A stretch of DNA of 64,000 bases, taken from contig OX359245.1 of NCBI GenBank assembly GCA_947179485.1, positions 40,225,067 to 40,289,066 of the forward strand, written 5' to 3'. Below are positions 36,651 to 64,000 of this stretch, piece by piece; the stretch's first letter is position 1; the number at the start of each line of letters is the position of its first letter. Source of the DNA: Allacma fusca. Taxonomy: Eukaryota > Arthropoda > Collembola > Symphypleona > Sminthuridae. Both the position numbers and the translations under genes were made by a program. Under the pieces are notes generated by a model, which did not search any database, was not told where the DNA came from, and was given only the letters and a program-made list of their open reading frames with translations.

Positions 36651-38262
36651 ACTTGCTCAAACTGTTTATAATAATTACTCATCTATGATAGCTGTGGTTA
36701 TTCCTGGCTGGCGATGTATGAGTGAGGCACATGTGAGTTTAAATGGTAGAGTAGTTATCAGCAAGGATTTTCCGCGGCGGAGATTCGGTTTACATATGTA
36801 TATGTAATTTAATGAGGTAAAGCTAGGACACAAATGTATGTTGTTAAGCATAATTTAACGATTGAGTTGTCACGCAACGTCACAGATACTCGGAGCTTCT
36901 GATTAACCAAGTATAGTACATTTATGTAGTACACGTTTACATTTCTCGTGACGTCGTGCTTTTCAAAAGCCGTTTAAACCAGCCAAAATACTACTTACTA
37001 TTCTGAGACGCCAAACCCGTCTCTTTCTTCACCATGCTTATTTAATTGGTATTTTTCTGCTTACTTGCACATTATATTGTTGTGCATGTCCTTGAAGATC
37101 AGCAACTGGAAATTTACTGGAGGAACAAAATGCTAAAAAATAAATGGCCTGCCACTGATTTTTGATCGCATGTTTATATGTGCCGTAGATACACATGGGA
37201 GTATGTTTTACATATAGAGTGGCGAATATTTGAAATCGAATTGCACATACAAACAGTAACAATAATCCTGGTGCATGTGGTCCATCCCTAGGAACACAGA
37301 CTTCCCTGCTGCTATGTATCTGACTATGTATGCAGTTCATTGCATGTTTTTCGATTAGGACCTGCATATATATTTGCCAATGGTTTTTTCTCCTTCTTAA
37401 AAACTAAATTTAGTTGGTTTCCAGCTTTTAGAAGAGCCTGTTGGACTAGAATAAATAACTACCGTTCGACAAAATGCTTCCTATTACTTTCTATTCGCTC
37501 TTTATAGTTTGAAACGGTGATACTAGCCTTCGTGATACACTCTAAATAAACTAGAAATCTGCGAACTGTCGACATGGTAATGCCGCAGGTGTAATTAGTC
37601 AGTGTAATGGAATCTCGGGAGATATTTGTACACGACAATTTCTTCAGCAATCCTAACCACGTTGGTCAACCAGACGCATGTAATCTCAAGTTTTATTCCC
37701 AGTGCAATATAGCTGTTTGACTAATAGTCAAGTTTGGTTTGACGTCGGCATGGTTTTCCTGCAAGTAACTGCATATGGAAGTGTGCTGATTGTCAGCATC
37801 TATGCGCATTTTATGGATAACAAAGCTAGGCGAGTCTTCGTACATAGAGCAGATGTGGATGGACAATTATTATGCCCTAAACTTATACTAATTTCCTGCA
37901 AATTCAAAATCATGGCGTTGTGCGGTAAAGTCGTAACGAGTGATTTACTAATTTTGTGGAATATTGGTGAAGATTGCATGCATTTCCAAGTTACTTGGAT
38001 CGTTTTTATGTGTACATATGCATGTATATGTCACCACCTGTTAGATTAAAATTCCAAAAATTATGTCTAATATGTACTGTAGATGAGTGAACCAAGATAT
38101 GTAAGATTTTATAAAATTCAGCAACTTTTAATAACACTGATATTGTGTTGGTATAAAAAATATATTGCACATTTACAATGCAGGATTTCCCCGAAGGGTT
38201 TCTAATTAAGTATACGTTTCAGCAAATGACTTGGACGTGTTTCGGACGACCGAAAGTTTCAA

Positions 38263-38683
38263 CTAACGTCCGAACCTTCCGTATCGCGTCGAGTCGGCAC
38301 TTGACCAAGGACTCCATGCCCGGCTCTCACTATTGAACATAAACAAGAAACGTGATTAGTAAAATGACACAATTATTCTGGCAATCACTCATGATTAGCC
38401 GCACAATATCATGTAAGGTGTTCTTACCGGTAATTTGTCATTGGACCCTCAGAGAGATACGGCATAGGCCCGTCCATTAAAGGCATTCCGAAAGGTAAAG
38501 CGCTCAAAACTCCCAGCAAGGTCAGGATAGTGATGAGGCCCAGAAACAGTGATACGACTGAAATCTATGAATGAAAATATTATGTATTAGCAATCGCGTA
38601 TTCCAAAATTCACCCGCACTTATTTTTCGAAACGTTTCCAGAATGTGAAACTCGATTAAAGAACAGGTTCTCACCGATTTCAT
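38263..38683 (-). CDS. secreted amidated-peptide precursor, copy 1
   Basis: Three exons (38683-38675, 38564-38428, 38329-38263) encode 70 residues. Exon 1 is just Met-Lys-Ser with a strong start context (CAACCATG) and a GTGAGA donor. Exon 2 supplies the rest of the signal peptide (core ISVVSLFLGLITILTLLGVL, likely cut after Leu-Ser-Ala25) and a Pro/Met-rich segment (LPFGMPLMDGPMPYLSEGP). Exon 3 encodes SRAWSPWSSADSTRYGRFGR and then TAG. The mature part is about 45 residues with no cysteine. It contains an Arg-x-x-Arg site (RESR, 49-52) that could release a 16-residue peptide, and the terminal Phe-Gly-Arg is a classic amidation signal giving an Arg-Phe-amide end. It looks like a neuropeptide- or effector-type precursor; I recognise no family. 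All splice sites are canonical. Confidence 0.75.
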
Positions 38684-38779
38684 GGTTGATTGTCTGGTCT
38701 TGTTATATAAACGGATGTTCAATGATTCACAACTTTTACTTGGTTCTGTGTTCCGTGCGTTAGCTTGGAGTGTGTGTGG

Positions 38780-38900
38780 CAAGCTGAATAAGCTTTAGGA
38801 AACGCTGCCATTTATACAAGCCATTATCTCAAATGTCATACAGCGTTCCTTTTCCCTGGTCACATGAGATGATAAGCTCGTTTTGTTTCTGATAAGTGCT
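38780..38900 (-). promoter_or_regulatory. core promoter and GATA sites of peptide gene copy 1
   Basis: On the minus strand a TATA box (TATAAAT, 38816-38810) lies 31 bases before an initiator (TTCAGCTT, presumed +1 A at 38785), the ideal spacing. This predicts a 5' leader of about 100 bases before the ATG at 38683. Upstream are two TGATAAG words (38870-38876 and 38890-38896, plus-strand reading) and a TTATCT (38824-38829), all GATA-factor sites. A GGGAAAAGGA word between them is only loosely kappaB-like. The arrangement is repeated in the other units; units 5-9 carry TTCAGTTT, a better initiator match. Confidence 0.65.
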
Positions 38901-41195
38901 CTGGCTAAACCTGAACAAATTATCGGAATTACAAGAACCAGAATAACCAGATTTCAAGTCGTAATGACGTGTTCGTGTTTCAGCATTTACTTAATTCTCG
39001 TGTCATGTACATAGTAAGCATGAATAAGACGTGCAATAAATAAATATACACCCGTGGTGTTCCGTTGGGAAACCATTTGTTTTCAACAATATTTTTGTTT
39101 TTGTGTATAACTGAATACTCCACCCAATCTTAGAGTCGAATTGTCTTTTGGGCGTTCGGAGCATTTCCCTTAAGTTGGCTCTCCTTGACTGTAGCAGCAC
39201 ATGGTTGACGATACACGACCGTGCATTGGCGTTTAGAGAAACAACTACTATTTTCACGGATAACCATTTAATATCCAAAACTATAATTGCTAAAATGCAA
39301 TAATTGCGTAGCACTACCGACACAATGTATGGCGATGGAGCCATTTTTACCATAGTCAGCAAAATGGACAGAGCCGCTCTCTGATGTCAAGCATAAGGCG
39401 GTGCAATTATTTAATTTCTCGGAATCGTAGTGTGTGTTTTCATACCTATGTTTTAATTGTAGTTATGGAAACGAGTAATATATATAACAGATCGTTATTT
39501 ATTGCAATGTATGTATATGGGCTGGCCTTTCTGTTAATCGAAACCCAGAAATCAGCCTTAGTAACGCTTTCTTATGTAATTTATCTCAATGAAACTGGTT
39601 TTAATAATTACTCATCTATGATAGCTGCGGTTATTCCTGGCTTGTGATGTATGAGTGAGGCACATGTGAGTTTAAATGGTAGAGTAGTTATCAGCAAGGA
39701 TTTTCCGCGGCGGAGATTCGGTTTACATATGTATATGTAATTTAATGAGGTAAAGCTAGGACACAAATGTATGTTGTTAAGCATAATTTAACGATTGAGT
39801 TGTCACGCAACGTCACAGATACTCGGAGCTTCTGATTAACCAAGTATAGTACATTTATGTAGTACACGTTTACATTTCTCGTGACGTCGTGCTTTTCAAA
39901 AGCCGTTTAAACCAGCCAAAATACTACTTACTATTCTGAGACGCCAAACCCGTCTCTTTCTTCACCATGCTTATTTAATTGGTATTTTTCTGCTTACTTG
40001 CACATTATATTGTTGTGCATGTCCTTGAAGATCAGCAACTGGAAATTTACTGGAGGAACAAAATGCTAAAAAATAAATGGTCTGCCACTGATTTTTGATC
40101 GCATGTTTATATGTGCCGTAGATACACATGGGAGTATGTTTTACATATAGAGTGGCGAATATTTGAAATCGAATTGCACATACAAACAGTAACAATAATC
40201 CTGGTGCATGTGGTTCATCCCTAGGAACACAGACTTCCCTGCTGCTATGTATCTGACTATGTATGCAGTTCATTGCATGTTTTTCGATTAGGACCTGCAT
40301 ATATATTTGCCAATGGTTTTTTCACCTTCTTAAAAACTAAATTTAGTTGGTTTCCAGCTTTTAGAAGAGCCTGTTGGACTAGAATAAATAACTAGCGTTC
40401 GACAAAATGCTTCCTATTACTTTCTATTCGCTCTTTATAGTTTGAAACGGTGATACTCGCCTTCGTGATACACTCTAAATAAACTACAAATCTGCGAACT
40501 GTCGACATGGTAATGTCGCAGGTGTAATTAGTCAGTGTAATGGAATCTCGGGAGATATTTGTACACGACAATTTCTTCAGCAATCCGAACCACGTTGGTC
40601 AATTAGACGCATGTAATCTCAAGTTTTATTCCCAGTTCAATATAGCTGTTTGACTAATAGTCAAGTTTGGTTTGACGTCGGCATGGTTTTCCTGCAAGTA
40701 ACTGCATATGGAAGTGTGCTGATTGTCAGCATCTTTGCGCATTTTATGGATAACAAAGCTAGGCGAGTCTTCGTACATAGAGCAGATGTGGATGGACAAT
40801 TATTATGCCCTAAACTTATACTAATTTCCTGCAAATTCAAAATCATGGCGTTGTGCGGTAAAGTCGTAACGAGTGATTTACTAATTTTGTGGAATATTGG
40901 TGAAGATTCCGTGCATTTCCAAGTTACTTGGATCGTTTTTATGTGTACATGTGCATGTATATGTCACCACCTGTTAGATTTAAATTCCAAAAATTATGTC
41001 TAATATGTACTGTAGATGAGTGAACCAAGATATGTAAGATTTTATAAAATTCAGCAACTTTTAATAACACTGATATTGTGTTGGTATAAAAAATATATTG
41101 CACATTTACAATGCAATATTTCCCCGAAGGGTTTCTAATTAAGTATACGTTTCAGCAAATGACTTGGACGTGTTTCGGACGACCGAAAGTTTCAA

Positions 41196-41616
41196 CTAAC
41201 GTCCGAACCTTCCGTATCGCGTCGAGTCGGCACTTGACCAAGGACTCCATGCCCGGCTCTCACTATTGAACATAAACAAGAAACGTGATTAGTAAAATGA
41301 CACAATTATTCTGGCAATCACTCATGATTAGCCGCACAATATCATGTAAGGTGTTCTTACCGGTAATTTGTCATTGGACCCTCAGAGAGATACGGCATAG
41401 GCCCGTCCATTAAAGGCATTCCGAAAGGTAAAGCGCTCAAAACTCCCAGCAAGGTCAGGATAGTGATGAGGCCCAGAAACAGTGATACGACTGAAATCTA
41501 TGAATGAAAATATTATGTATTAGCAATCGCGTATTCCAAAATTCACCCGCACTTATTTTTCGAAACGTTTCCAGAATGTGAAACTCGATTAAAGAACAGG
41601 TTCTCACCGATTTCAT
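41196..41616 (-). CDS. secreted amidated-peptide precursor, copy 2
   Basis: Exons 41616-41608, 41497-41361 and 41262-41196. The coding sequence and splice sites match copy 1. A difference lies in the 3' flank, where CAGGATTT becomes CAATATTT. TATA and initiator are intact (initiator of the TTCAGCTT form). Confidence 0.75.
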
Positions 41617-44129
41617 GGTTGATTGTCTGGTCTTGTTATATAAACGGATGTTCAATGATTCACAACTTTTACTTGGTTCTGTGTTCCGTGCGTTAGCTTG
41701 GAGTGTGTGTGGCAAGCTGAATAAGCTTTAGGAAACGCTGCCATTTATACAAGCCATTATCTCAAATGTCATACAGCGTTCCTTTTCCCTGGTCACATGA
41801 GATGATAAGCTCGTTTTGTTTCTGATAAGTGCTCTGGCTAAACCTGAACAAATTATCGGAATTACATGAACCAGAATAACCAGATTTCAAGTCGTAATGA
41901 CGTGTTCGTGTTTCAGCATTTACTTAATTCTCGTGTCATGTACATAGTAAGCATGAATAAGACGTGCAATAAATAAATATACACCCGTGGTGTTCCGTTG
42001 GGAAACCATTTGTTTTCAACAATATTTTTGTTTTTGTGTATAACTGAATACTCCACCCAATCTTAGAGTCGAATTGTCTTTTGGGCGTTCGGAGCATTTC
42101 CTTTAAGTTGGCTCTCCTTGACTGTAGCAGCACATGGTTGACGATACACGACCGTGCATTGGCGTTTAGAGAAACAACTACTATTTTCACGGATAACCAT
42201 TTAATATCCAAAACTATAATTGCTAAAATGCAATAATTGCGTAGCACTACCGACACAATGTATGGCGATGGAGCCATTTTTACCATAGTCAGCAAAATGG
42301 ACAGAGCCGCTCTCTTATGTCAAGCATAAGGCGGTGCAATTATTTAATTTCTCGGAATCGTAGTGTGTGTTTTCATACCTATGTTTTAATTGTAGTTATG
42401 GAAACGAGTAATATATATAACAGATCGTTATTTATTGCAATGTATGTATATGGGCTGGCCTTTCTGTTAATCGAAACCCAGAAATCAGCCTTAGTAACGC
42501 TTTCTTATGTAATTTATCTCAATGAAACTGGTTTTAATAATTACTCATCTATGATAGCTGCGGTTATTCCTGGCTTGTGATGTATGAGTGAGGCACATGT
42601 GAGTTTAAATGGTAGAGTAGTTATCAGCAAGGATTTTCCGCGGCGGAGATTCGGTTTACATATGTATATGTAATTTAATGAGGTAAAGCTAGGACACAAA
42701 TGTATGTTGTTAAGCATAATTTAACGATTGAGTTGTCACGCAACGTCAGAGATACTCGGAGCTTCTGATTAACCAAGTATAGTACATTTATGTAGTACAC
42801 GTTTACATTTCTCGTGACGTCGTGCTTTTCAAAAGCCGTTTAAACCAGCCAAAATACTACTTACTATTCTGAGACGCCAAACCCGTCTCTTTCTTCACCA
42901 TGCTTATTTAATTGGTATTTTTCTGCTTACTTGCACATTATATTGTTGTGCATGTCCTTGAAGATCAGCAACTGGAAATTTACTGGAGGAACAAAATGCT
43001 GAAAAATAAATGGCCTGCCACTGATTTTTGATCGCATGTTTATATGTGCCGTAGATACACATGGGAGTATGTTTTACATATAGAGTGGCGAATATTTGAA
43101 ATCGAATTGCACATACAAACAGTAACAATAATCCTGGTGCATGTGGTTCATCCCTAGGAACACAGACTTCCCTGCTGCTATGTATCTGACTATGTATGCA
43201 GTTCATTGCATGTTTTTCGATTAGGACCTGCATATATATTTGCCAATGGTTTTTTCACCTTCTTAAAAACTAAATTTAGTTGGTTTCCAGCTTTTAGAAG
43301 AGCCTGTTGGACTAGAATAAATAACTAGCGTTCGACAAAATGCTTCCTATTACTTTCTATTCGCTCTTTATAGTTTGAAACGGTGATACTCGCCTTCGTG
43401 ATACACTCTAAATAAACTACAAATCTGCGAACTGTCAACATGGTAATGTCGCAGGTGTAATTAGTCAGTGTAATGGAATCTCGGGGAGATATTTGTACAC
43501 GACAATTTCTTCAGCAATCCAAACCACGTTGGTCAACCAGACGCATGTAATCTCAAGTTTTATTCCCAGTTCAATATAGCTGTTTGACTAATAGTCAAGT
43601 TTGGTTTGACGTCGGCATGGTTTTCCTGCAAGTAACTGCATATGGAAGTGTGCTGATTGTCAGCATCTTTGCGCATTTTATGGATAACAAAGCTAGGCGA
43701 GTCTTCGTACATAGAGCAGATGTGGATGGACAATTATTATGCCCTAAACTTATACTAATTTCCTGCAAATTCAAAATCATGGCGTTGTGCGGTAAAGTCG
43801 TAACGAGTGATTTACTAATTTTGTGGAATATTGGTGAAGATTCCGTGCATTTCCAAGTTACTTGGATCGTTTTTATGTGTACATGTGCATGTATATGTCA
43901 CCACCTGTTAGATTTAAATTCCAAAAATTATGTCTAATATGTACTGTAGATGAGTGAACCAAGATATGTAAGATTTTATAAAATTCAGCAACTTTTAATA
44001 ACACTGATATTGTGTTGGTATAAAAAATATATTGCACATTTACAATGCAGGATTTCCCCGAAGGGTTTCTAATTAAGTATACGTTTCAGCAAATGACTTG
44101 GACGTGTTTCGGACGACCGAAAGTTTCAA

Positions 44130-44550
44130 CTAACGTCCGAACCTTCCGTATCGCGTCGAGTCGGCACTTGACCAAGGACTCCATGCCCGGCTCTCACTAT
44201 TGAACATAAACAAGAAACGTGATTAGTAAAATGACACAATTATTCTGGCAATCACTCATGATTAGCCGCACAATATCATGTAAGGTGTTCTTACCGGTAA
44301 TTTGTCATTGGACCCTCAGAGAGATACGGCATAGGCCCGTCCATTAAAGGCATTCCGAAAGGTAAAGCGCTCAAAACTCCCAGCAAGGTCAGGATAGTGA
44401 TGAGGCCCAGAAACAGTGATACGACTGAAATCTATGAATGAAAATATTATGTATTAGCAATCGCGTATTCCAAAATTCACCCGCACTTATTTTTCGAAAC
44501 GTTTCCAGAATGTGAAACTCGATTAAAGAACAGGTTCTCACCGATTTCAT
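44130..44550 (-). CDS. secreted amidated-peptide precursor, copy 3
   Basis: Exons 44550-44542, 44431-44295 and 44196-44130. The precursor is unchanged from copy 1. Outside the gene this unit shares with unit 4 an extra G (TCTCGGGGAGAT near 43480), so units 3 and 4 are recent sisters. Confidence 0.75.
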
Positions 44551-47063
44551 GGTTGATTGTCTGGTCTTGTTATATAAACGGATGTTCAATGATTCACAAC
44601 TTTTACTTGGTTCTGTGTTCCGTGCGTTAGCTTGGAGTGTGTGTGGCAAGCTGAATAAGCTTTAGGAAACGCTGCCATTTATACAAGCCATTATCTCAAA
44701 TGTCATACAGCGTTCCTTTTCCCTGGTCACATGAGATGATAAGCTCGTTTTGTTTCTGATAAGTGCTCTGGCTAAACCTGAACAAATTATCGGAATTACA
44801 TGAACCAGAATAACCAGATTTCAAGTCGTAATGACGTGTTCGTGTTTCAGCATTTACTTAATTCTCGTGTCATGTACATAGTAAGCATGAATAAGACGTG
44901 CAATAAATAAATATACACCCGTGGTGTTCCGTTGGGAAACCATTTGTTTTCAACAATATTTTTGTTTTTGTGTATAACTGAATACTCCACCCAATCTTAG
45001 AGTCGAATTGTCTTTTGGGCGTTCGGAGCATTTCCTTTAAGTTGGCTCTCCTTGACTGTAGCAGCACATGGTTGACGATACACGACCGTGCATTGGCGTT
45101 TAGAGAAACAACTACTATTTTCACGGATAACCATTTAATATCCAAAACTATAATTGCTAAAATGCAATAATTGCGTAGCACTACCGACACAATGTATGGC
45201 GATGGAGCCATTTTTACCATAGTCAGCAAAATGGACAGAGCCGCTCTCTTATGTCAAGCATAAGGCGGTGCAATTATTTAATTTCTCGAAATCGTAGTGT
45301 GTGTTTTCATACCTATGTATTAATTGTAAATATGGAAACGAGTAATATATATAAAAGATCGTTATTGATTGCAATGTATGTATATGGGCTGGCCTTTCTG
45401 TTAATCGAAACCCAGAAATCAGCCTTAGTAACGCTTTCTTATGTAATTTATCTCGATGAAACTGGTTTTAATAATTACTCATCTATGATAGCTGCGGTTA
45501 TTCCTGGCTTGTGATGTATGAGTGAGGCACATGTGAGTTTAAATGGTAGAGTAGTTATCAGCAAGGATTTTCCGCGGCGGAGATTCGGTTTACATATGTA
45601 TATGTAATTTAATGAGGTAAAGCTAGGACACAAATGTATGTTGTTAAGCATAATTTAACGATTGAGTTGTCACGCAACGTCAGAGATACTCGGAGCTTCT
45701 GATTAACCAAGTATAGTACATTTATGTAGTACACGTTTACATTTCTCGTGACGTCGTGCTTTTCAAAAGCCGTTTAAACCAGCCAAAATACTACTTACTA
45801 TTCTGAGACGCCAAACCCGTCTCTTTCTTCACCATGCTTATTTAATTGGTATTTTTCTGCTTACTTGCACATTATATTGTTGTGCATGTCCTTGAAGATC
45901 AGCAACTGGAAATTTACTGGAGGAACAAAATGCTAAAAAATAAATGGCCTGCCACTGATTTTTGATCGCATGTTTATATGTGCCGTAGATACACATGGGA
46001 GTATGTTTTACATATAGAGTGGCGAATATTTGAAATCGAATTGCACATACAAACAGTAACAATAATCCTGGTGCATGTGGTTCATCCCTAGGAACACAGA
46101 CTTCCCTGCTGCTATGTATCTGACTATGTATGCAGTTCATTGCATGTTTTTCGATTAGGACCTGCATATATATTTGCCAATGGTTTTTTCACCTTCTTAA
46201 AAACTAAATTTAGTTGGTTTCCAGCTTTTAGAAGAGCCTGTTGGACTAGAATAAATAACTAGCGTTCGACAAAATGCTTCCTATTACTTTCTATTCGCTC
46301 TTTATAGTTTGAAACGGTGATACTCGCCTTCGTGATACACTCTAAATAAACTACAAATCTGCGAACTGTCAACATGGTAATGTCGCAGGTGTAATTAGTC
46401 AGTGTAATGGAATCTCGGGGAGATATTTGTACACGACAATTTCTTCAGCAATCCAAACCACGTTGGTCAACCAGACGCATGTAATCTCAAGTTTTATTCC
46501 CAGTTCAATATAGCTGTTTGACTAATAGTCAAGTTTGGTTTGACGTCGGCATGGTTTTCCTGCAAGTAACTGCATATGGAAGTGTGCTGATTGTCAGCAT
46601 CTTTGCGCATTTTATGGATAACAAAGCTAGGCGAGTCTTCGTACATAGAGCAGATGTGGATGGACAATTATTATGCCCTAAACTTATACTAATTTCCTGC
46701 AAATTCAAAATCATGGCGTTGTGCGGTAAAGTCGTAACGAGTGATTTACTAATTTTGTGGAATATTGGTGAAGATTCCGTGCATTTCCAAGTTACTTGGA
46801 TCGTTTTTATGTGTACATGTGCATGTATATGTCACCACCTGTTAGATTTAAATTCCAAAAATTATGTCTAATATGTACTGTAGATGAGTGAACCAAGATA
46901 TGTAAGATTTTATAAAATTCAGCAACTTTTAATAACACTGATATTGTGTTGGTATAAAAAATATATTGCACATTTACAATGCAGGATTTCCCCGAAGGGT
47001 TTCTAATTAAGTATACGTTTCAGCAAATGACTTGGACGTGTTTCGGACGACCGAAAGTTTCAA

Positions 47064-47484
47064 CTAACGTCCGAACCTTCCGTATCGCGTCGAGTCGGCA
47101 CTTGACCAAGGACTCCATGCCCGGCTCTCACTATTGAACATAAACAAGAAACGTGATTAGTAAAATGACACAATTATTCTGGCAATCACTCATGATTAGC
47201 CGCACAATATCATGTAAGGTGTTCTTACCGGTAATTTGTCATTGGACCCTCAGAGAGATACGGCATAGGCCCGTCCATTAAAGGCATTCCGAAAGGTAAA
47301 GCGCTCAAAACTCCCAGCAAGGTCAGGATAGTGATGAGGCCCAGAAACAGTGATACGACTGAAATCTATGAATGAAAATATTATGTATTAGCAATCGCGT
47401 ATTCCAAAATTCACCCGCACTTATTTTTCGAAACGTTTCCAGAATGTGAAACTCGATTAAAGAACAGGTTCTCACCGATTTCAT
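47064..47484 (-). CDS. secreted amidated-peptide precursor, copy 4
   Basis: Exons 47484-47476, 47365-47229 and 47130-47064. The coding sequence equals copy 1. Its upstream region shifts to the variant seen in later units (CATCGTTCC instead of CAGCGTTCC near 47642), so a switch between repeat subtypes falls within this unit. Confidence 0.75.
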
Positions 47485-49996
47485 GGTTGATTGTCTGGTC
47501 TTGTTATATAAACGGATGTTCAATGATTCACAACTTTTACTTGGTTCTGTGTTCCGTGCGTTAGCTTGGAGTGTGTGTGGCAAGCTGAATAAGCTTTAGG
47601 AAACGCTGCCATTTATACAAGCCATTATCTCAAATGTCATACATCGTTCCTTTTCCCTGGTCACATGAGATGATAAGCTCGTTTTGTTTCTGATAAGTGC
47701 CTTGGCTGAACCTGAACAAATCATCGGAATGACATGAACCAGAATAACCAGATTTCAAGTCGTAATGACGTGTTCGTGTTTCAGCATTTACTTAATTCTC
47801 GTGTCATGTACATAGTAAGCATGAATAAGACGTGCAATAAATAAATATACACCCGTGGTGTTCCGTTGGGAAACCATTTGTTTTCAACAATATTTTTGTT
47901 TTTGTGTACAACTGAATACTCCACCCAATCTTAGAGTCGAATTGTCTTTTGGGAGTTCGGAGCATTTCCTTTAAGTTGGCTCTCCCTGACTGTAGCAGCA
48001 CATCGTTGACGATACACGACCGTGCATTGGCGTTTAGAGAAACAACTACTATTTTCACGGATAACCATTTAATATCCAAAACTATAATTGCTAAAATGCA
48101 ATAATTGCGTAGCACTACCGACACAATGTATGGCGATGGAGCCATTTTTACCATAGTCAGCAAAATGGACAGAGCCGCTCTCTTATGTCAAGCATAAGGC
48201 GGTGCAATTATTTAATTTCTCGAAATCGTAGTGTGTGTTTTCATACCTATGTTTTAATTGTAAATATGGAAACGAGTAATATATATAAAAGATCGTTATT
48301 GATTGCAATGTATGTACATGGGCTGGCCTTTCTGTTAATCGAAACCCAGAAATCAGCCTTAGTAACGCTTTCTTATGTAATTTATCTCGATGAAACTGGT
48401 TTTAATAATTACTCATCTATGATAGCTGCGGTTATTCCTGGCTTGTGATGTATGAGTGAGGCACATGTGAGTTTAAATGGTAGAGTAGTTATCAGCAAGG
48501 ATTTTCCGCGGCGGAGATTCGGTTTACATATGTATATGTAATTTAATGAGGTAAAGCTAGGACACAAATGTATGTTGTTAAGCATAATTTAACGATTGAG
48601 TTGTCACGCAACGTCACAGATACTCGGAGCTTCTGATTAACCAAGTATAGTACATTTATGTAGTACACGTTTACATTTCTCGTGACGTCGTGCTTTTCAA
48701 AAGCCGTTTAAACCAGCCAAAATACTACTTACTATTCTGAGACGCCAAACCCGTCTCTTTCTTCACCATGCTTATTTAATTGGTATTTTTCTGCTTACTT
48801 GCACATTATATTGTTGTGCATGTCCTTGAAGATCAGCAACTGGAAATTTACTGGAGGAACAAAATGCTAAAAAATAAATGGTCTGCCACTGATTTTTGAT
48901 CGCATGTTTATATGTGCCGTAGATACACATGGGAGTATGTTTTACATATAGAGTGGCGAATATTTGAAATCGAATTGCACATACAAACAGTAACAATAAT
49001 CCTGGTGCATGTGGTTCATCCCTAGGAACACAGACTTCCCTGCTGCTATGTATCTGACTATGTATGCAGTTCATTGCATGTTTTTCGATTAGGACCTGCA
49101 TATATATTTGCCAATGGTTTTTTCACCTTCTTAAAAACTAAATTTAGTTGGTTTCCAGCTTTTAGAAGAGCCTGTTGGACTAGAATAAATAACTAGCGTT
49201 CGACAAAATGCTTCCTATTACTTTCTATTCGCTCTTTATAGTTTGAAACGGTGATACTCGCCTTCGTGATACACTCTAAATAAACTACAAATCTGCGAAC
49301 TGTCAACATGGTAATGTCGCAGGTGTAATTAGTCAGTGTAATGGAATCTCGGGAGATATTTGTACACGACAATTTCTTCAGCAATCCAAACCACGTTGGT
49401 CAACCAGACGCATGTAATCTCAAGTTTTATTCCCAGTTCAATATAGCTGTTTGTCTAATAGTCAAGTTTGGTTTGACGTCGGCATGGTTTTCCTGCAAGT
49501 AACTGCATATGGAAGTGTGCTGATTGTCAGCATCTTTGCGTATTTTATGGATAACAAAGCTAGGCGAGTCTTCGTACATAGAGCAGATGTGGATGGACAA
49601 TTATTATGCCCTAAACTTATACTAATTTCCTGCAAATTCAAAATCATGGCGTTGTGCGGTAAAGTCGTAACGAGTGATTTACTAATTTTGTGGAATATTG
49701 GTGAAGATTCCGTGCATTTCCAAGTTACTTGGATCGTTTTTATGTGTACATGTGCATGTATATGTCACCACCTGTTAGATTTAAATTCCAAAAATTATGT
49801 CTAATATGTACTGTAGATGAGTGAACCAAGATATGTAAGATTTTATAAAATTCAGCAACTTTTAATAACACTGATATTGTGTTGGTATAAAAAATATATT
49901 GCACATTTACAATGCAGGATTTCCCCGAAGGGTTTCTAATTAAGTATACGTTTCAGCAAATGACTTGGACGTGTTTCGGACGACCGAAAGTTTCAA

Positions 49997-50417
49997 CTAA
50001 CGTCCGAACCTTCCGTATCGCGTCGAGTCGGCACTTGACCAAGGACTCCATGCCCGGCTCTCACTATTGAACATAAACAAGAAACGTGATTAGTAAAATG
50101 ACACAATTATTCTGGCAATCACTCATGATTAGCCGCACAATATCATGTAAGGTGTTCTTACCGGTAATTTGTCATTGGACCCTCAGAGAGATACGGCATA
50201 GGCCCGTCCATTAAAGGCATTCCGAAAGGTAAAGCGCTCAAAACTCCCAGCAAGGTCAGGATAGTGATGAGGCCCAGAAACAGTGATACGACTGAAATCT
50301 ATGAATGAAAATATTATGTATTAGCAATCGCGTATTCCAAAATTCACCCGCACTTATTTTTCTAAACGTTTCCAGAATGTGACACTCGATTAAAGAACAG
50401 GTTCTCACCGATTTCAT
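49997..50417 (-). CDS. secreted amidated-peptide precursor, copy 5
   Basis: Exons 50417-50409, 50298-50162 and 50063-49997. The coding sequence is unchanged. Intron 1 has two substitutions (TCTAAACG and GACACTCG) shared with copies 6 and 7, and the initiator is of the TTCAGTTT form. Units 5 and 6 also share TTTGTCTAATAGTC near 49451. Confidence 0.75.
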
Positions 50418-52927: not shown

Positions 52928-53348
52928 CTAACGTCCGAACCTTCCGTATCGCGTCGAGTCGGCACTTGACCAAGGACTCCATGCCCGGCTCTCACTATTG
53001 AACATAAACAAGAAACGTGATTAGTAAAATGACACAATTATTCTGGCAATCACTCATGATTAGCCGCACAATATCATGTAAGGTGTTCTTACCGGTAATT
53101 TGTCATTGGACCCTCAGAGAGATACGGCATAGGCCCGTCCATTAAAGGCATTCCGAAAGGTAAAGCGCTCAAAACTCCCAGCAAGGTCAGGATAGTGATG
53201 AGGCCCAGAAACAGTGATACGACTGAAATCTATGAATGCAAATATTATGTATTAGCAATCGCGTATTCCAAAATTCACCCGCACTTATTTTTCTAAACGT
53301 TTCCAGAATGTGACACTCGATTAAAGAACAGGTTCTCACCGATTTCAT
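52928..53348 (-). CDS. secreted amidated-peptide precursor, copy 6
   Basis: Exons 53348-53340, 53229-53093 and 52994-52928. The coding sequence is unchanged. One substitution sits in the intron-1 polypyrimidine region (GAATGCAAAT near 53234) and one in the 5' leader (GGAGTATGTG near 53433). Confidence 0.75.
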
Positions 53349-55860
53349 GGTTGATTGTCTGGTCTTGTTATATAAACGGATGTTCAATGATTCACAACTT
53401 TTACTTGGTTCTGTGTTCCGTGCGTTAGCTTGGAGTATGTGTGGCAAACTGAATAAGCTTTAGGAAACGCTGCCATTTATACAAGCCATTATCTCAAATG
53501 TCATACATCGTTCCTTTTCCCTGGTCACATGAGATGATAAGCTCGTTTTGTTTCTGATAAGTGCCTTGGCTGAACCTGAACAAATCATCGGAATTACAAG
53601 AACCAGAATAACCAGATTTCAAGTCGTAATGACGTGTTCGTGTTTCAGCATTTACTTAATTCTCGTGTCATGTGCATAGTAAGCATGAATAAGACGTGCA
53701 ATAAATAAATATACACCCGTGGTGTTCCGTTGGGAAACCATTTGTTTTCAACAATATTTTTGTTTTTGTGTATAACTGAATACTCCACCCAATCTTAGAG
53801 TCGAATTGTCTTTTGGGAGTTCGGAGCATTTCCTTTAAGTTGGCTCTCCCTGACTGTAGCAGCACATGGTTGACGATACACGACCGTGCATTGGCGTTTA
53901 GAGAAACAACTACTATTTTCACGGATAACCATTTAATATCCAAAACTATAATTGCTAAAATGCAATAATTGCGTAGCACTACCGACACAATGTATGGCGA
54001 TGGAGCCATTTTTACCATAGTCAGCAAAATGGACAGAGCCGCTCTCTGATGTCAAGCATAAGGTGGGGCAATTATTTAATTTCTCGGAATCGTAGTGTGT
54101 GTTTTCATACCTATGTTTTAATTGTAGTTATGGAAACGAGTAATATATATAACAGATCGTTATTTATTGCAATGTATGTATATGGGCTGGCCTTTCTGTT
54201 AATCGAAACCCAGAAATCAGCCTTAGTAACGCTTTCTTATGTAATTTATCTCGATGAAACTGGTTTTAATAATTACTCATCTATGATAGCTGCGGTTATT
54301 CCTGGCTTGTGATGTATGAGTGAGGCACATGTGAGTTTAAATGGTAGAGTAGTTATCAGCAAGGATTTTCCGCGGCGGAGATTCGGTTTACATATGTATA
54401 TGTAATTTAATGAGGTAAAGCTAGGACACAAATGTATGTTGTTAAGCATAATTTAACGATTGAGTTGTCACGCAACGTCACAGATACTCGGAGCTTCTGA
54501 TTAACCAAGTATAGTACATTTATGTAGTACACGTTTACATTTCTCGTGACGTCGTGCTTTTCAAAAGCCGTTTAAACCAGCCAAAATACTACTTACTATT
54601 CTGAGACGCCAAACCCGTCTCTTTCTTCACCATGCTTATTTAATTGGTATTTTTCTGCTTACTTGCACATTATATTGTTGTGCATGTCCTTGAAGATCAG
54701 CAACTGGAAATTTACTGGAGGAACAAAATGCTAAAAAATAAATGGTCTGCCACTGAATTTTGATCGCATGTTTATATGTGCCGTAGATACACATGGGAGT
54801 ATGTTTTACATATAGAGTGGCGAATATTTGAAATCGAATTGCACATACAAACAGTAACAATAATCCTGGTGCATGTGGTTCATCCCTAGGAACACAGACT
54901 TCCCTGCTGCTATGTATCTGACTATGTATGCAGTTCATTGCATGTTTTTCGATTAGGACCTGCATATATATTTGCCAATGGTTTTTTCTCCTTCTTAAAA
55001 ACTAAATTTAGTTGGTTTCCAGCTTTTAGAAGAGCCTGTTGGACTAGAATAAATAACTAGCGTTCGACAAAATGCTTCCTATTACTTTCTATTCGCTCTT
55101 TATAGTTTGAAACGGTGATACTCGCCTTCGTGATACACTCTAAATAAACTAGAAATCTGCGAACTGTCGACATGGTAATGTCGCAGGTGTAATTAGTCAG
55201 TGTAATGGAATCTCGGGAGATATTTGTACACGACAATTTCTTCAGCAATCCAAACCACGTTGGTCAACCAGACGCATGTAATCTCAAGTTTTATTCCCAG
55301 TTCAATATAGCTGTTTGACTAATAGTCAAGTTTGGTTTGACGTCGGCATGGTTTTCCTGCAAGTAACTGCATATGGAAGTGTGCTGATTGTCAGCATCTA
55401 TGCGCATTTTATGGATAACAAAGCTAGGCGAGTCTTCGTACATAGAGCAGATGTGGATGGACAATTATTATGCCCTAAACTTATACTAATTTCCTGCAAG
55501 TTCAAAATTATGGCGTTGTGCGGTAAAGTCGTAACGAGTGATTTACTAATTTTGTGGAATATTGGTGAAGATTCCGTGCATTTCCAAGTTACTTGGATCG
55601 TTTTTATGTGTACATATGCATGTATATGTCACCACCTGTTAGATTTAAATTCCAAAAATTATGTCTAATATGTACTGTAGATGAGTGAACCAAGATATGT
55701 AAGATTTTATAAAATTCAGCAACTTTTAATAACACTGATATTGTGTTGGTATAAAAAATATATTGCACATTTACAATGCAGGATTTCCCCGAAGGGTTTC
55801 TTATTAAGTATACGTTTCAGCAAATGACTTGGACGTGTTTCGGACGACCGAAAGTTTCAA

Positions 55861-56281
55861 CTAACGTCCGAACCTTCCGTATCGCGTCGAGTCGGCACTT
55901 GACCAAGGACTCCATGCCCGGCTCTCACTATTGAACATAAACAAGAAACGTGATTAGTAAAATGACACAATTATTCTGGCAATCACTCATGATTAGCCGC
56001 ACAATATCATGTAAGGTGTTCTTACCGGTAATTTGTCATTGGACCCTCAGAGAGATACGGCATAGGCCCGTCCATTAAAGGCATTCCGAAAGGTAAAGCG
56101 CTCAAAACTCCCAGCAAGGTCAGGATAGTGATGAGGCCCAGAAACAGTGATACGACTGAAATCTATGAATGAAAATATTATGTATTAGCAATCGCGTATT
56201 CCAAAATTCACCCGCACTTATTTTTCTAAACGTTTCCAGAAAGTGACACTCGATTAAAGAACAGGTTCTCACCGATTTCAT
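55861..56281 (-). CDS. secreted amidated-peptide precursor, copy 7
   Basis: Exons 56281-56273, 56162-56026 and 55927-55861. The coding sequence is unchanged. An intron-1 substitution (AGAAAGTGACAC near 56238) and a 3'-flank change (TTTCTTATTAAG near 55798) mark this copy. Confidence 0.75.
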
Positions 56282-58793
56282 GGTTGATTGTCTGGTCTTG
56301 TTATATAAACGGATGTTCAATGATTCACAACTTTTACTTGGTTCTGTGTTCCGTGCGTTAGCTTGGAGTGTGTGTGGCAAACTGAATAAGCTTTAGGAAA
56401 CGCTGCCATTTATACAAGCCATTATCTCAAATGTCATACATCGTTCCTTTTCCCTGGTCACATGAGATGATAAGCTCGTTTTGTTTCTGATAAGTGCCTT
56501 GGCTGAACCTGAACAAATCATCGGAATGACATGAACCAGAATAACCAGATTTCAAGTCGTAATGAGGTGTTCGTGTTTCAGCATTTACTTAATTCTCGTG
56601 TCATGTACATAGTAAGCATGAATAAGACGTGCAATAAATAAATATACACCCGTGGTGTTCCGTTGGGAAACCATTTGTTTTCAACAATATTTTTGTTTTT
56701 GTGTATAACTGAATACTCCACCCAATCTTAGAGTCGAATTGTCTTTTGGGCGTTCGGAGCATTTCCTTTAAGTTGGCTCTCCTTGACTGTAGCAGCACAT
56801 GGTTGACGATACACGACCGTGCATTGGCGTTTAGAGAAACAACTACTATTTTCACGGATAACCATTTAATATCCAAAACTATAATTGCTAAAATGCAATA
56901 ATTGCGTAGCACTACCGACACAATGTATGGCGATGGAGCCATTTTTACCATAGTCAGCAAAATGGACAGAGCCGCTCTCTTATGTCAAGCATAAGGCGGT
57001 GCAATTATTTAATTTCTCGAAATCGTAGTGTGTGTTTTCATACCTATGTTTGAATTGTAAATATGGAAACGAGTAATATATATAAAAGATCGTTATTTAT
57101 TGCAATGTATGGATATGGGCTGGCCTTTCTGTTAATTGAAACCCAGAAATCAGCCTTAGTAACGCTTTCTTATGTAATTTATCTCGATGAAACTGGTTTT
57201 AACAATTACTCATCTATGATAGCTGCGGTTATTCCTGGCTTGTGATGTTTGAGTGAGGCACATGTGAGTTTAAATGGTAGAGTAGTTATCAGCAAGGATT
57301 TTCCGCGGCGGAGATTCGGTTTACATATGTATATGTAATTTAATGAGGTAAAGCTAGGACACAAATATATGTTGTTAAGCATAATTTAACGATTGAGTTG
57401 TCACGCAACGTCACAGATACTCGGAGCTTCTGATTAACCAAGTATAGTACATTTATGTAGTACACGTTTACATTTCTCGTGACGTCGTGCTTTTCAAAAG
57501 CCGTTTAAACCAGCCAAAATACTACTTACTATTCTGAGACGCCAAACCCGTCTCTTTCTTCACCATGCTTATTTAATTGGTATTTTTCTGCTTACTTGCA
57601 CATTATATTGTTGTGCATGTCCTTGAAGATCAGCAACTGGAAATTTACTGGAGGAACAAAATGCTAAAAAATAAATGGTCTGCCACTGATTTTTGATCGC
57701 ATGTTTATATGTGCCGTAGATACACATGGGAGTATGTTTTACATATAGAGTGGCGAATATTTGAAATCGAATTGCACATACAAACAGTAACAATAATCCT
57801 GGTGCATGTGGTTCATCCCTAGGAACACAGACTTCCCTGCTGCTATGTATCTGACTATGTATGCAGTTCATTGCATGTTTTTCGATAAGGACCTGCATAT
57901 ATATTTGCCAATGGTTTTTTCGCCATCTTAAGAACTAAATTTAGTTGGTTTCCAGTTTTTAGAAGAGCCTGTTAGACTAGAATAAATAACTAGCGTTCGA
58001 CAAAATGCTTCTCATTACTTTCTATTCGCTCTTTATAGTTTGAAACGGTGATACTCGCCTTCGTGATGCACTCTCAATAAACTAGAAATCTGCGATCTGT
58101 CGAAATGGTAATGTCGCAGGTGTAATTAGTCAGTGTATAGGAATCTCGGGAGATATTTGTACACGACAATTTCTTCAGCAATCCGAACCACGTTGGTCAA
58201 TTAGACGCATGTAATCTCAAGTTTTATTCCCAGTTCAATATAGCTGTTTGACTAATAGTCAAGTTTGGTTTGACGTCGGCATGGTTTTCCTGCAAGTAAC
58301 TGCATATGGAAGTGTGCTGATTGTCAGCATCTATGCGCAGTTTATGGATAACAAAGCTAGGCGAGTCTTCGTACATAGAGCAGATGTGGATGGATAATTA
58401 TTATGCCCTAAACTTATACTAATTTCCTGCCAATTCAAAATCATGGCGTTGTGCGGTAAAGTCGTAACGAGTGATTTACTAATTTTGTGGAATATTGGTG
58501 AAGATTCCGTGCATTTCCAAGTTACTTGGATCGTTTTTATGTGTACATATGCATGTAAATGTCACCACCTGTTAGATTTAAATTCCAAAAATTATGTCTA
58601 ATATGTACTGTAGATGAGTGAACCAAGATATGTAAGATTTTATAAAATTCAGCAACTTTTAATAACACTGATATTGTGTTGGTATAAAAAATATATTGCA
58701 CATTTACAATGCAGGATTTCCCTGAAGGGTTTCTAATTAAGTATACGTTTCAGCAAATGACTTGGACGTGTTTCGGACGACCGAAAGTTTCAA

Positions 58794-59214
58794 CTAACGT
58801 CCGAACCTTCCGTATCGCGTCGAGTCGGCACTTGACCAAGGACTCCATGCCCGGCTCTCACTATTGAACATAAACAAGAAACGTGATTAGTAAAATGACA
58901 CAATTATTCTGGCAATCACTCATGATTAGCCGCACAATATCATGTAAGGTGTTCTTACCGGTAATTTGTCATTGGACCCTCAGAGAGATACGGCATAGGG
59001 CCGTCCATTAAAGGCATTCCGAAAGGTAAAGCGCTCAAAACTCCCAGCAAGGTCAGGATAGTGATGAGGCTCAGAAACAGTGATACGACTGAAATCTATG
59101 AATGAAAATATTATGTATTAGCAATCGCGTATTCCAAAATTCACCCGCACTTATTTTTCGAAACGTTTCCAGAATGTGACACTCGATTAAAGAACAGGTT
59201 CTCACCGATTTCAT
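58794..59214 (-). CDS. secreted amidated-peptide precursor, copy 8
   Basis: Exons 59214-59206, 59095-58959 and 58860-58794. Exon 2 has Gly12 to Ser in the hydrophobic core of the signal peptide (GAGGCTCAG on the plus strand) and a silent change at the Gly codon of the Asp-Gly-Pro-Met segment (GGGCCGTCC near 58998). The predicted mature peptide is identical. A 5'-leader change (GTTTCGTGC near 59282) is also present. Confidence 0.75.
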
Positions 59215-61724
59215 GGTTGATTGTCTGGTCTTGTTATATAAACGGATGTTCAATGATTCACAACTTTTACTTGGTTCTGTGTTTCGTGCGTTAGCTTGGA
59301 GTGTGTGTGGCAAACTGAATAAGCTTTAGGAAACGCTGCCATTTATACAAGCCATTATCTCAAATGTCATACATCGTTCCTTTTCCCTGGTCACATGAGA
59401 TGATAAGCTCGTTTTGTTTCTGATAAGTGCTCTGGCTGAACCTGAACAAATCATCGGAATTACAAGAACCAGAATAACCAGATTTCAAGTCGTAATGACG
59501 TGTTCGTGTTTCAGCATTTACTTAATTCTCGTGTCATGTTCATAGTAAGCATGAATAAGACGTGCAATAAATAAATATACACCCGTGGTGTTCCGTTGGG
59601 AAACCATTTGTTTTCAACAATATTTTTGTTTTTGTGTATAACTGAATACTCCACCCAATCTTAGAGTCGAATTGTCTTTTGGGCGTTCGGAGCATTTCCT
59701 TTAAGTTGGCTCTCCCTGACTGTAGCAGCACATGGTTGACGATACACGACCGTGCATTGGCGTTTAGAGAAACAACTACTATTTTCACGGATAACCATTT
59801 AATATCCAAAACTATAATTGCTAAAATGCAATAATTGCGTAGCACTACCGACACAATGTATGGCGATGGAGCCATTTTTACCATAGTCAGCAAAATGGAC
59901 AGAGCCGCTCTCTGATGTCAAGCATAAGGCGGTGCAATTATTTAATTTCTCGAAATCGTAGTGTGTGTTTTCATACCTATGTTTTAATTGTAGTTATGGA
60001 AACGAGTAATATATAACAGATCGTTATTTATTGCAATGTATGTATATGGGCTGGCCTTTCTGTTAATCGAAACCCAGAAATCAGCCTTAGTAACGCTTTC
60101 TTATGTAATTTATCTCGATGAAACTGGTTTTAATAATTACTCATCTATGATAGCTGCGGTTATTCCTGGCTTGTGATGTATGAGTGAGGCACATGTGAGT
60201 TTAAATGGTAGAGTAGTTATCAGCAAGGATTTTCCGCGGCGGAGATTCGGTTTACATATGTATATGTAATTTAATGAGGTAAAGCTAGGACACAAATGTA
60301 TGTTGTTAAGCATAATTTAACGATTGAGTTGTCACGCAACGTCACAGATACTCGGAGCTTCTGATTAACCAAGTATAGTACATTTATGTAGTACACGTTT
60401 ACATTTCTCGTGACGTCGTGCTTTTCAAAAGCCGTTTAAACCAGCCAAAATACTACTTACTATTCTGAGACGCCAAACCCGTCTCTTTCTTCACCATGCT
60501 TATTTAATTGGTATTTTTCTGCTTACTTGCACATTATATTGTTGTGCATGTCCTTGAAGATCAGCAACTGGAAATTTACTGGAGGAACAAAATGCTAAAA
60601 AATAAATGGTCTGCCACTGAATTTTGATCGCATGTTTATATGTGCCGTAGATACACATGGGAGTATGTTTTACATATAGAGTGGCGAATATTTGAAATCG
60701 AATTGCACATACAAACAGTAACAATAATCCTGGTGCATGTGGTTCATCCCTAGGAACACAGACTTCCCTGCTGCTATGTATCTGACTATGTATGCAGCTC
60801 ATTGCATGTTTTTCGATTAGGACCTGCATATATATTTGCCAATGGTTTTTTCTCCTTCTTAAAAACTAAATTTAGTTGGTTTCCAGCTTTTAGAAGAGCC
60901 TGTTGGACTAGAATAAATAACTAGCGTTCGACAAAATGCTTCCTATTACTTTCTATTCGCTCTTTATAGTTTGAAACGGTGATACTCGCCTTCGTGATAC
61001 ACTCTAAATAAACTAGAAATCTGCGAACTGTCGACATGGTAATGTCGCAGGTGTAATTAGTCAGTGTAATGGAATCTCGGGAGATATTTGTACACGACAA
61101 TTTCTTCAGCAATCCAAACCACGTTGGTCAACCAGACGCATGTAATCTCAAGTTTTATTCCCAGTTCAATATAGCTGTTTGACTAATAGTCAAGTTTGGT
61201 TTGACGTCGGCATGGTTTTCCTGCAAGTAACTGCATATGGAAGTGTGCTGATTGTCAGCATCTATGCGCATTTTATGGATAACAAAGCTAGGCGAGTCTT
61301 CGTACATAGAGCAGATGTGGATGGACAATTATTATGCCCTAAACTTATACTAATTTCCTGCAAATTCAAAATCATGGCGTTGTGCGGTAAAGTCGTAACG
61401 AGTGATTTACTAATTTTGTGGAATATTGGTGAAGATTCCGTGCATTTCCAAGTTACTTGGATCGTTTTTATGTGTACATGTGCATGTATATGTCACCACC
61501 TGTTAGATTTAAATTCCAAAAATTATGTCTAATATGTACTGTAGATGAGTGAACCAAGATATGTAAGATTTTATAAAATTCAGCAACTTTTAATAACACT
61601 GATATTGTGTTGGTATAAAAAATATATTGCACATTTACAATGCAGGATTTCCCCGAAGGGTTTCTAATTAAGTATACGTTTCAGCAAATGACTTGGACGT
61701 GTTTCGGACGACCGAAAGTTTCAA

Positions 61725-62145
61725 CTAACGTCCGAACCTTCCGTATCGCGTCGAGTCGGCACTTGACCAAGGACTCCATGCCCGGCTCTCACTATTGAAC
61801 ATAAACAAGAAACGTGATTAGTAAAATGACACAATTATTCTGGCAATCACTCGTGATTAGCCGCACAATATCATGTAAGGTGTTCTTACCGGTAATTTGT
61901 CATTGGACCCTCAGAGAGATACGGCATAGGCCCGTCCATTAAAGGCATTCCGAAAGGTAAAGCGCTCAAAACTCCCAGCAAGGTCAGGATAGTGATGAGG
62001 CTCAGAAACAGTGATACGACTGAAATCTATGAATGAAAATATTATGTATTAGCAATCGCGTATTCCAAAATTCACCCGCACTTATTTTTCGAAACGTTTC
62101 CAGAATGTGACACTCGATTAAAGAACAGGTTCTCACCGATTTCAT
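61725..62145 (-). CDS. secreted amidated-peptide precursor, copy 9
   Basis: Exons 62145-62137, 62026-61890 and 61791-61725. It shares the Gly12-to-Ser signal-peptide variant with copy 8 but not its silent change. One substitution lies in intron 2 (CTCGTGATTAG near 61850). The mature peptide is identical to the others. Confidence 0.75.
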
Positions 62146-63054
62146 GGTTGATTGTCTGGTCTTGTTATATAAACGGATGTTCAATGATTCACAACTTTTA
62201 CTTGGTTCTGTGTTCCGTGCGTTAGCTTGGAGTGTGTGTGGCAAACTGAATAAGCTTTAGGAAACGCTGCCATTTATACAAGCCATTATCTCAAATGTCA
62301 TACATCGTTCCTTTTCCCTGGTCACATGAGATGATAAGCTCGTTTTGTTTCTGATAAGTGCCTTGGCTGAACCTGAACAAATCATCGGAATGACATGAAC
62401 CAGAATAACCAGATTTCAAGTCGTAATGAGGTGTTCGTGTTTCAGCATTTACTTAATTCTCGTGTCATGTACATAGTAAGCATGAATAAGACGTGCAATA
62501 AATAAATATACACCCGTGGTGTTCCGTTGGGAAACCATTTGTTTTCAACAATATTTTTGTTTTTGTGTACAACTGAATACTCCACCCAATCTTAGAGTCG
62601 AATTGTCTTTTGGGCGTTCGGAGCATTTCCTTTAAGTTGGCTCTCCCTGACTGTAGCAGCACATCGTTGACGATACACGACCGTGCATTGGCGTTTAGAG
62701 AAACAACTACTATTTTCACGGATAACCATTTAATATCCAAAACTATAATTGCTAAAATGCAATAATTGCGTAGCACTACCGACACAATGTATGGCGATGG
62801 AGCCATTTTTACCATAGTCAGCAAAATGGACAGAGCCGCTCTCTTATGTCAAGCATAAGGCGGTGCAATTATTTAATTTCTCGAAATCGTAGTGTGTGTT
62901 TTCATACCTATGTTTGAATTGTAAATATGGAAACGAGTAATATATATAAAAGATCGTTATTTATTGCAATGTATGGATATGGGCTGGCCTTTCTGTTAAT
63001 TGAAACCCAGAAATCAGCCTTAGTAACGCTTTCTTATGTAATTTATCTCGATGA

Positions 63055-64000
63055 AACTGGTTTTAATAATTACTCATCTATGATAGCTGCGGTTATTCCT
63101 GGCTTGTGATGTATGAGTGAGGCACATGTGAGTTTAAATGGTAGAGTAGTTATCAGCAAGGATTTTCCGCGGCGGAGATTCGGTTTACATATGTATATGT
63201 AATTTAATGAGGTAAAGCTAGGACACAAATATATGTTGTTAAGCATAATTTAACGATTGAGTTGTCACGCAACGTCACAGATACTCGGAGCTTCTGATTA
63301 ACCAAGTATAGTACATTTATGTAGTACACGTTTACATTTCTCATGACGTCGTGCTTTTCAAAAGCCGTTTAAACCAGCCAAAATACTACTTACTATTCTG
63401 AGACGCCAAACCCGTCTCTTTCTTCACCATGCTTATTTAATTGGTATTTTTCTGCTTACTTGCACATTATATTGTTGTGCATGTCCTTGAAGATCAGCAA
63501 CTGGAAATTTACTGGAGGAACAAAATGCTACCAAATAAATGACCTGCCACTGATTTTTGATCGCATGTTTATATGTGCCGTAGATACACATGGGAGTATG
63601 TTTTACATATAGAGTGGCGAATATTTGAAATCGAATTGCACATACAAACAGTAACAATACCCCTGGTGCATGTGGTTCATAACTAGGAACACAGACTTCC
63701 CTGCTGCTATATATCTGACTATGTATGCAGTTCATTGCATGTTTTTCGATTAGGACCTGCATATATATTTGCCAATGGTTTTTTCGCCATCTTAAGAACT
63801 AAATTTAGTTGGTTTCCAGTTTTTAGAAGAGCCTGTTAGACTAGAATAAATAACTAGCGTTCGACAAAATGCTTCTCATTACTTTCTATTCGCTCTTTAT
63901 AGTTTGAAACGGTGATACTCGCCTTCGTGATGCACTCTCAATAAACTAGAAATCTGCGATCTGTCGAAATGGTAATGTCGCAGGTGTAATTAGTCAGTGT
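63055..64000. repeat. tenth array unit, truncated by window end
   Basis: This holds the first ~946 bases of a unit. It is among the more divergent copies (for example ACCAAATAAATGACCTG near 63530 and AATACCCCTGG near 63657) and shares many variants with unit 8 (57191-60121). Its peptide gene, if present, would lie beyond the window at roughly 64.66-65.08 kb. Confidence 0.9.

Follow-up and report, generated by a model that had tools for sequence, protein, structure and literature searches.

Animal genes known to have been amplified include the antifreeze genes of fish and Nv1 of Nematostella vectensis, which encodes a secreted neurotoxin with cysteines and shows concerted evolution. The Nv1 locus is described as holding 1-24 diploid copies across populations, some of them identical, and copy number is reported to correlate with transcript and protein (PMC9842752). 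Large copy-number variation is also described for the Stellate and histone arrays of Drosophila; the Stellate units are given as 1.15-1.26 kb long, with one to about 198 euchromatic copies depending on the strain, and their suppression is ascribed to PIWI-interacting RNAs (piRNAs) from the Y chromosome (PMC12400953). Several antifreeze gene copies have been reported in arthropods with strong antifreeze activity, and the Collembola have such a family, whose proteins are glycine-rich with GXX repeats (PMC10235112). In the window analyzed here, a stretch of 64,000 nucleotides from the springtail Allacma fusca (contig OX359245.1), a gene for a short, apparently secreted peptide is repeated in a tandem unit of 2.93 kb. 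We think it probable, with some reserve, that the gene encodes a taxon-restricted secreted peptide and has been amplified to raise its dose, the unit carrying its own promoter and poly(A) signal.

Structure of the tandem array

The spacing of exact 16-mers in the window peaks at 2931/2933/2934 bases. Repeated 16-mers almost fill the interval 36.7-64 kb and are nearly missing from 0-36 kb. Cutting at a gene anchor delimits nine complete units of 2931-2934 bp, arranged head to tail, and 938 bp of a tenth:

36668..63062, no strand: nine complete units, full span
36668-39600: complete unit U1
39601-42534: complete unit U2
42535-45468: complete unit U3
45469-48401: complete unit U4
48402-51332: complete unit U5
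51333-54265: complete unit U6
54266-57198: complete unit U7
57199-60129: complete unit U8
60130-63062: complete unit U9
63063..64000, no strand: partial unit U10, cut by the end of the window before its gene

Pairwise identity among the nine full units is 98.26-99.66%, and their alignment contains indels. The tandem array looks real, which confirms the observation, made in an initial annotation of this DNA, of at least nine consecutive near-identical 2.93-kb units. Its start had been put at 36660; homology to the next unit begins 8 bases further in, at 36,668/36,669. The window stops within the array and the number of units is therefore a lower bound. The 2.93-kb period exceeds the limit of 500 in Tandem Repeats Finder, which for this reason does not list the array. 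Rfam at the gathering score and ARAGORN with bacterial settings gave 0 matches, and tblastn against plasmid records gave one match without meaning (E = 0.7).

The peptide gene and its signals

All nine full units (9/9) contain a complete three-exon gene on the minus strand. The coding exons measure 9, 137 and 67 nt in 9/9 copies, which makes a coding sequence (CDS) of 213 nt including the stop, or 70 residues, and the introns are 110 nt (GTGAG...TAG) and 98 nt (GTAAG...TAG) long in all nine. The features of copy 1, in the order of transcription, and the positions of the other copies are:

38810..38816, minus strand: TATA box TATAAAT, at equal distance in 9/9 copies
38782..38787, minus strand: initiator-like site with its A at 38785; TCAGCT in U1-U4, TCAGTT in U5-U9
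38684..38785, minus strand: predicted 5' leader, 102 nt, ATG-free
38675..38683, minus strand: exon 1, coding, 9 nt (M K S), donor GTGAG
38428..38564, minus strand: exon 2, coding, 137 nt, preceded by the 110-nt intron, donor GTAAG
38263..38329, minus strand: exon 3, coding and stop, 67 nt, preceded by the 98-nt intron, end RYGRFGR
38127..38132, minus strand: ATTAAA poly(A) signal, 130 nt past the stop, in 9/9 copies
41196..41616, minus strand: copy 2, ATG to stop
44130..44550, minus strand: copy 3, ATG to stop
47064..47484, minus strand: copy 4, ATG to stop
49997..50417, minus strand: copy 5, ATG to stop
52928..53348, minus strand: copy 6, ATG to stop
55861..56281, minus strand: copy 7, ATG to stop
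58794..59214, minus strand: copy 8, ATG to stop, G12S and one synonymous change
61725..62145, minus strand: copy 9, ATG to stop, G12S

The TATA box stands 133 nt upstream of the ATG, whose context is AACCATGA; in U1-U4 the initiator A follows the first T of the box by 31 nt. The initiator of U5-U9 differs by one base (C to T at -100, a position taken from the list of differences); its TCAGTT is closer than TCAGCT to the arthropod initiator consensus. The gene had been predicted with three exons, a first coding exon of nine bases, the unit 1 junctions 38675/38564 and 38428/38329, and a TATA/initiator promoter of its own in each unit. All of this stands: the copies are complete with these junctions in 9/9 units, the TATA box is present in 9/9, and an initiator-like site is found in all, with the single base difference in U5-U9.

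A second TATA-like sequence, TATATAA, lies 26 nt before the ATG. It was rejected as the promoter, as the usual TATA-to-start spacing would place its transcription start at about the ATG; the spacing of the TATAAAT/initiator pair further upstream is normal. Taken alone, a loose pair of TATAAA and TCAG/TCAT near this spacing is not rare, since it occurs twice on the plus strand (and 0 times on the minus strand) of the 36.6-kb left flank. The signals were also combined into a gene rule: TATA, initiator, first ATG, GTRAG/YAG introns, a signal-peptide-like start and at least 60 residues. Applied to unit 1 and 500 further bases, this rule yields a single model, the peptide gene, with 0 models on both strands of the left flank and 0 in 1000 dinucleotide shuffles; having been written after the model was known, it measures how special the model is and gives no unbiased P value.

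A public 'unnamed protein product [Allacma fusca]' is identical to the precursor over 70/70 residues. If encoded by such a unit, this protein would require the same exon joins. An open frame of 116 amino acids (aa) at 39006-39353 on the minus strand was searched as a control and possible second gene; both of the 2 candidates that the protein search returned had E above 1. Each unit has other long frames, of 109 aa and 99-106 aa, and the 116-aa frame was the only long frame searched. The gene model is thus backed by the identity of the public protein to the splicing product, while the 116-aa frame has no match, and by the finding that 9/9 copies are intact with their signals and that the gene rule finds no other model.

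The expectation that standard annotation would miss the gene fails, since the 70-aa protein is already public, although the array itself is not visible there. The public entry has one member sequence, with the longest contig given as 729, and the window holds nine copies. Assembly GCA_910591605.1 is described as fragmented (PMC9630974), and a chromosome-level A. fusca assembly, GCA_947179485.1, is reported to have been made with Hifiasm (PMC10427803). We infer that the lone short contig is the repeat collapsed in the fragmented short-read assembly GCA_910591605.1, to which the record is presumably linked.

Properties of the predicted peptide

The 70-residue precursor has a signal-peptide-like start, a predicted mature region of 43 residues and a C-terminal Gly-Arg. 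The signal peptide was predicted from hydropathy, whose mean is 2.5-2.8 in 11-residue windows starting at residues 4 to 16; the predicted cleavage site after residue 25 was placed by eye. Relative to unit 1, the CDS has no difference in U2-U7, one in U9 (G12S) and two in U8 (G12S and one synonymous change). Residue 12 sits within the signal-peptide-like start, and the predicted mature region (residues 26-68) is identical in 9/9 copies. The claim of an unchanged peptide thus holds for the mature region and not for the whole precursor. Gly-Arg followed by the stop can serve as an amidation signal, as had been proposed, and the sequence also supports an apparently secreted precursor. The end of the precursor, R-Y-G-R-F-G-R, fits R-F-G plus a basic residue and would yield an RF-amide. 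No dibasic site (KK, KR, RK or RR) occurs within the 70 residues.

The protein search took in proteins that share short exact words with the query and have 0.55-1.75 times its length. Within this word-limited scope it found no relative of the precursor besides the identical A. fusca protein, so that the peptide gene appears so far to be matched only in this species. Pfam has 0 families for the peptide up to E = 1, and the sequences of the Protein Data Bank (PDB) gave one chain at E = 1.5, which has no meaning. A literature search of titles and abstract openings found no arthropod GRFamide-type peptide like this one, and nothing on a tandem-repeat peptide in A. fusca.

Several known classes were considered and rejected. 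The predicted mature region has 0 cysteines in 43 residues, so it has no cysteine framework of a disulphide-rich toxin or defensin. It has 4 basic (K/R) against 4 acidic (D/E) residues, hence no net charge and not the clear positive charge of a cationic antimicrobial peptide. This composition gives no support to a cysteine-rich venom-like or a cationic antimicrobial reading of the gene. A collembolan glycine-rich antifreeze protein was dropped on composition as well (4 Gly in 43, no GXX repeats). Neuropeptide F has the consensus end R-P-R-F-amide, and the end here is Y-G-R-F. The WSPWSS of exon 3, which we took to resemble a thrombospondin repeat motif, was dropped in view of the missing cysteines and the lack of a Pfam match.

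Variation and exchange between units

Across the nine full units 97 of 2933 columns are variable, 58 of them as singletons. By class, the variable sites number 2/213 in the CDS, 5/208 in the introns, 3/102 in the 5' leader, 4/153 in the 3' region, 1/100 in the promoter (100 nt) and 82/2157 in the remainder. The leader variants lie at -100, -89 and -70. The CDS, at 0.94%, is the lowest of the six classes; the promoter has 1.0% and the remainder 3.8%. Hypergeometric P is 0.023 for the CDS (2/213 vs 95/2720 elsewhere), 0.040 for exonic mRNA and 0.023 for the transcribed region including introns. Outside the peptide gene, at 36884-37134, lies the longest run of invariant columns in the unit, 251 nt (permutation P 0.015).

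Nearby units are more alike. Mean divergence stays below 1% for units one (0.89%) or two (0.84%) places apart, lies at 1.14-1.24% for three to six, and reaches 1.42% for seven and 1.43% for eight, the last being a single pair. Variants are distributed as a mosaic, with a four-gamete conflict in 319 of the 703 pairs among 38 informative sites. U7 and U9 have 1 difference in the first 930 columns. The partial U10 is nearest to U8 (13 differences in 930 columns, vs 23-29 to the other units); these two share 12 variants absent from all other units, yet differ at 13 columns. The mosaic variants and the distance pattern fit unequal exchange and conversion; near the right side, exchange may have moved two units at a time.

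U8 and U10 (57199-60129 and 63063-64000) form a second unit subtype, which may be more frequent past the window edge. Of the 27 sites at which U8 alone differs among the nine full units, 14 lie at unit offset 660-945.

Explanations for the array

If the array is an amplification for dose, the amplified 2.93-kb segment would comprise an RNA-polymerase-II gene together with its promoter and poly(A) signal, and every copy of it would act as an independent transcription unit with a TATA/initiator promoter, a 102-nt leader, two short introns to be spliced out in vivo, and a 70-residue precursor. The signal peptide would direct the precursor into the secretory pathway, being cleaved off after residue 25. 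After trimming of the terminal Arg and amidation at the Gly, the product would be a linear peptide of at most 43 residues that has no cysteine and no net side-chain charge and ends in Tyr-Gly-Arg-Phe-amide. Unequal exchange and conversion would let the array grow, shrink and stay homogeneous. The likely effect of the array would be more transcript and more peptide.

Several observations weigh against amplification for dose. As many as 13% of all 213-column windows have at most 2 variable columns and are as invariant as the CDS. The frames of 109 and 114-116 aa are likewise uninterrupted in 9/9 units, so that an intact frame says little for an array of this age. Statistically, the signal of selection is weak. 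The public protein, if predicted ab initio, rests on the same signals as the gene model, and the word-limited search found no relative in another species. Because the copies differ by only ~1% and exchange mixes the units, the constancy of the peptide is weak evidence of selection; it is compatible with recent homogenization and points weakly to constraint. The initial annotation had read selection for high expression from the unchanged peptide. Selection for dose is plausible, but the case is weaker than stated, given the ~1% divergence and the equally invariant windows, and the interpretation as a whole is partly supported.

The main rival is a neutral gene-bearing satellite, in which the gene is real, the array has spread by unequal crossing over without a benefit from dose, and most copies may be silent. 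We regard this as possible, if on the unlikely side. Such a satellite would explain why variation is low across the whole unit (97/2933 columns), why the longest invariant stretch (251 nt) is outside the gene, why 13% of the 213-column windows match the CDS in invariance, and why other open frames also remain open. It fits less well with the CDS (0.94%) and promoter (1.0%) being the least variable classes, against 3.8% in the remainder, or with a coding frame, TATA box and ATTAAA kept in 9/9 copies.

That the array amplifies the gene of an RFamide-type neuropeptide precursor is doubtful. The signal-peptide-like start and the C-terminal F-G-R-stop suggest this class, but the 70 residues have no dibasic site, no Pfam family up to E = 1 and, in the word-limited search, no relative besides the precursor itself; to our knowledge, neuropeptide genes also seldom form near-identical arrays. 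RFamide and Allacma are absent from the main text of a survey of non-pterygote hexapod neuropeptides, in which RYamide occurs once (PMC4770511).

It is very unlikely that the array is a selfish or sex-linked amplicon of the Drosophila Stellate type, maintained by transmission conflict and not by usefulness, in a springtail with paternal genome elimination. The architecture resembles that described for the Stellate arrays (PMC12400953), and the sperm of A. fusca males are reported to hold one parental haplotype only (PMC9630974), but a secreted peptide would not be the expected kind of drive product. An assembly artefact, with a single gene duplicated in silico, is scarcely credible even though the window ends within the array, as false duplication would not create 97 variable columns (58 singletons), indels between units and ordered block similarity.

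Amplification for dose is thus the explanation we retain. A bolder proposal, which we consider improbable, is that the product belongs to a new class of secreted peptides, linear and amidated, confined to globular springtails and with a signalling, seminal, pheromonal or defensive role, and that its dose is set by array length, which would differ from one individual to the next in a species that has paternal genome elimination. Provided that the copies are expressed, the array would be a compact example, in a basal hexapod, of dosage through amplification of a gene, and its copy number a trait measurable per individual.

Sequence to the left of the array

Three frames in the flank have matches in the searches:

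33037-34437: Tc5/pogo-like transposase frame (DDE_1, E 5.2e-06; HTH_Tnp_Tc5, E 1.6e-05)
24777-27008: 743-aa frame, with 28 relatives listed
4876-5301: Claudin_2 (PMP-22/claudin) match, E 2.3e-10, probably belonging to a host gene for a membrane protein

Of the relatives of the 743-aa frame, some carry PF02992, as in an A. fusca protein, or PF06869, as in a protein of Folsomia candida. We take these to be transposase families and read the frame as a transposase; in Pfam the frame itself has no transposase family above the cut-off. Among the best 8000 word-sharing candidates scored, the best match to 24777-27005 is an A. fusca protein, with 97% identity over 40% of the query.

Comparison with known systems

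Tandem amplification of genes is well documented in animals. For the peptide, the word-limited search found no relative other than itself. With the Stellate and histone arrays of Drosophila the locus shares protein genes in tandem units of kilobase size, with unequal exchange and gene conversion; those products are intracellular, whereas the springtail peptide is apparently secreted. Unlike the collembolan antifreeze proteins, the mature region has 4 Gly in 43 residues and no GXX repeat. RFamide precursors, from what is generally known of them, resemble this precursor in having a signal peptide and a C-terminal F-G-R, but the springtail precursor is without dibasic sites, a second peptide copy or a family match. 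Nv1 shares with the locus an amplified peptide gene in several copies, some of them identical. The springtail peptide differs in having no cysteine or known role, and general searches revealed no relation to Nv1. The nearest known kind is the amplification, for dosage, of a gene for a short secreted peptide, exemplified by Nv1 of N. vectensis, and the springtail array most likely works in the same way.

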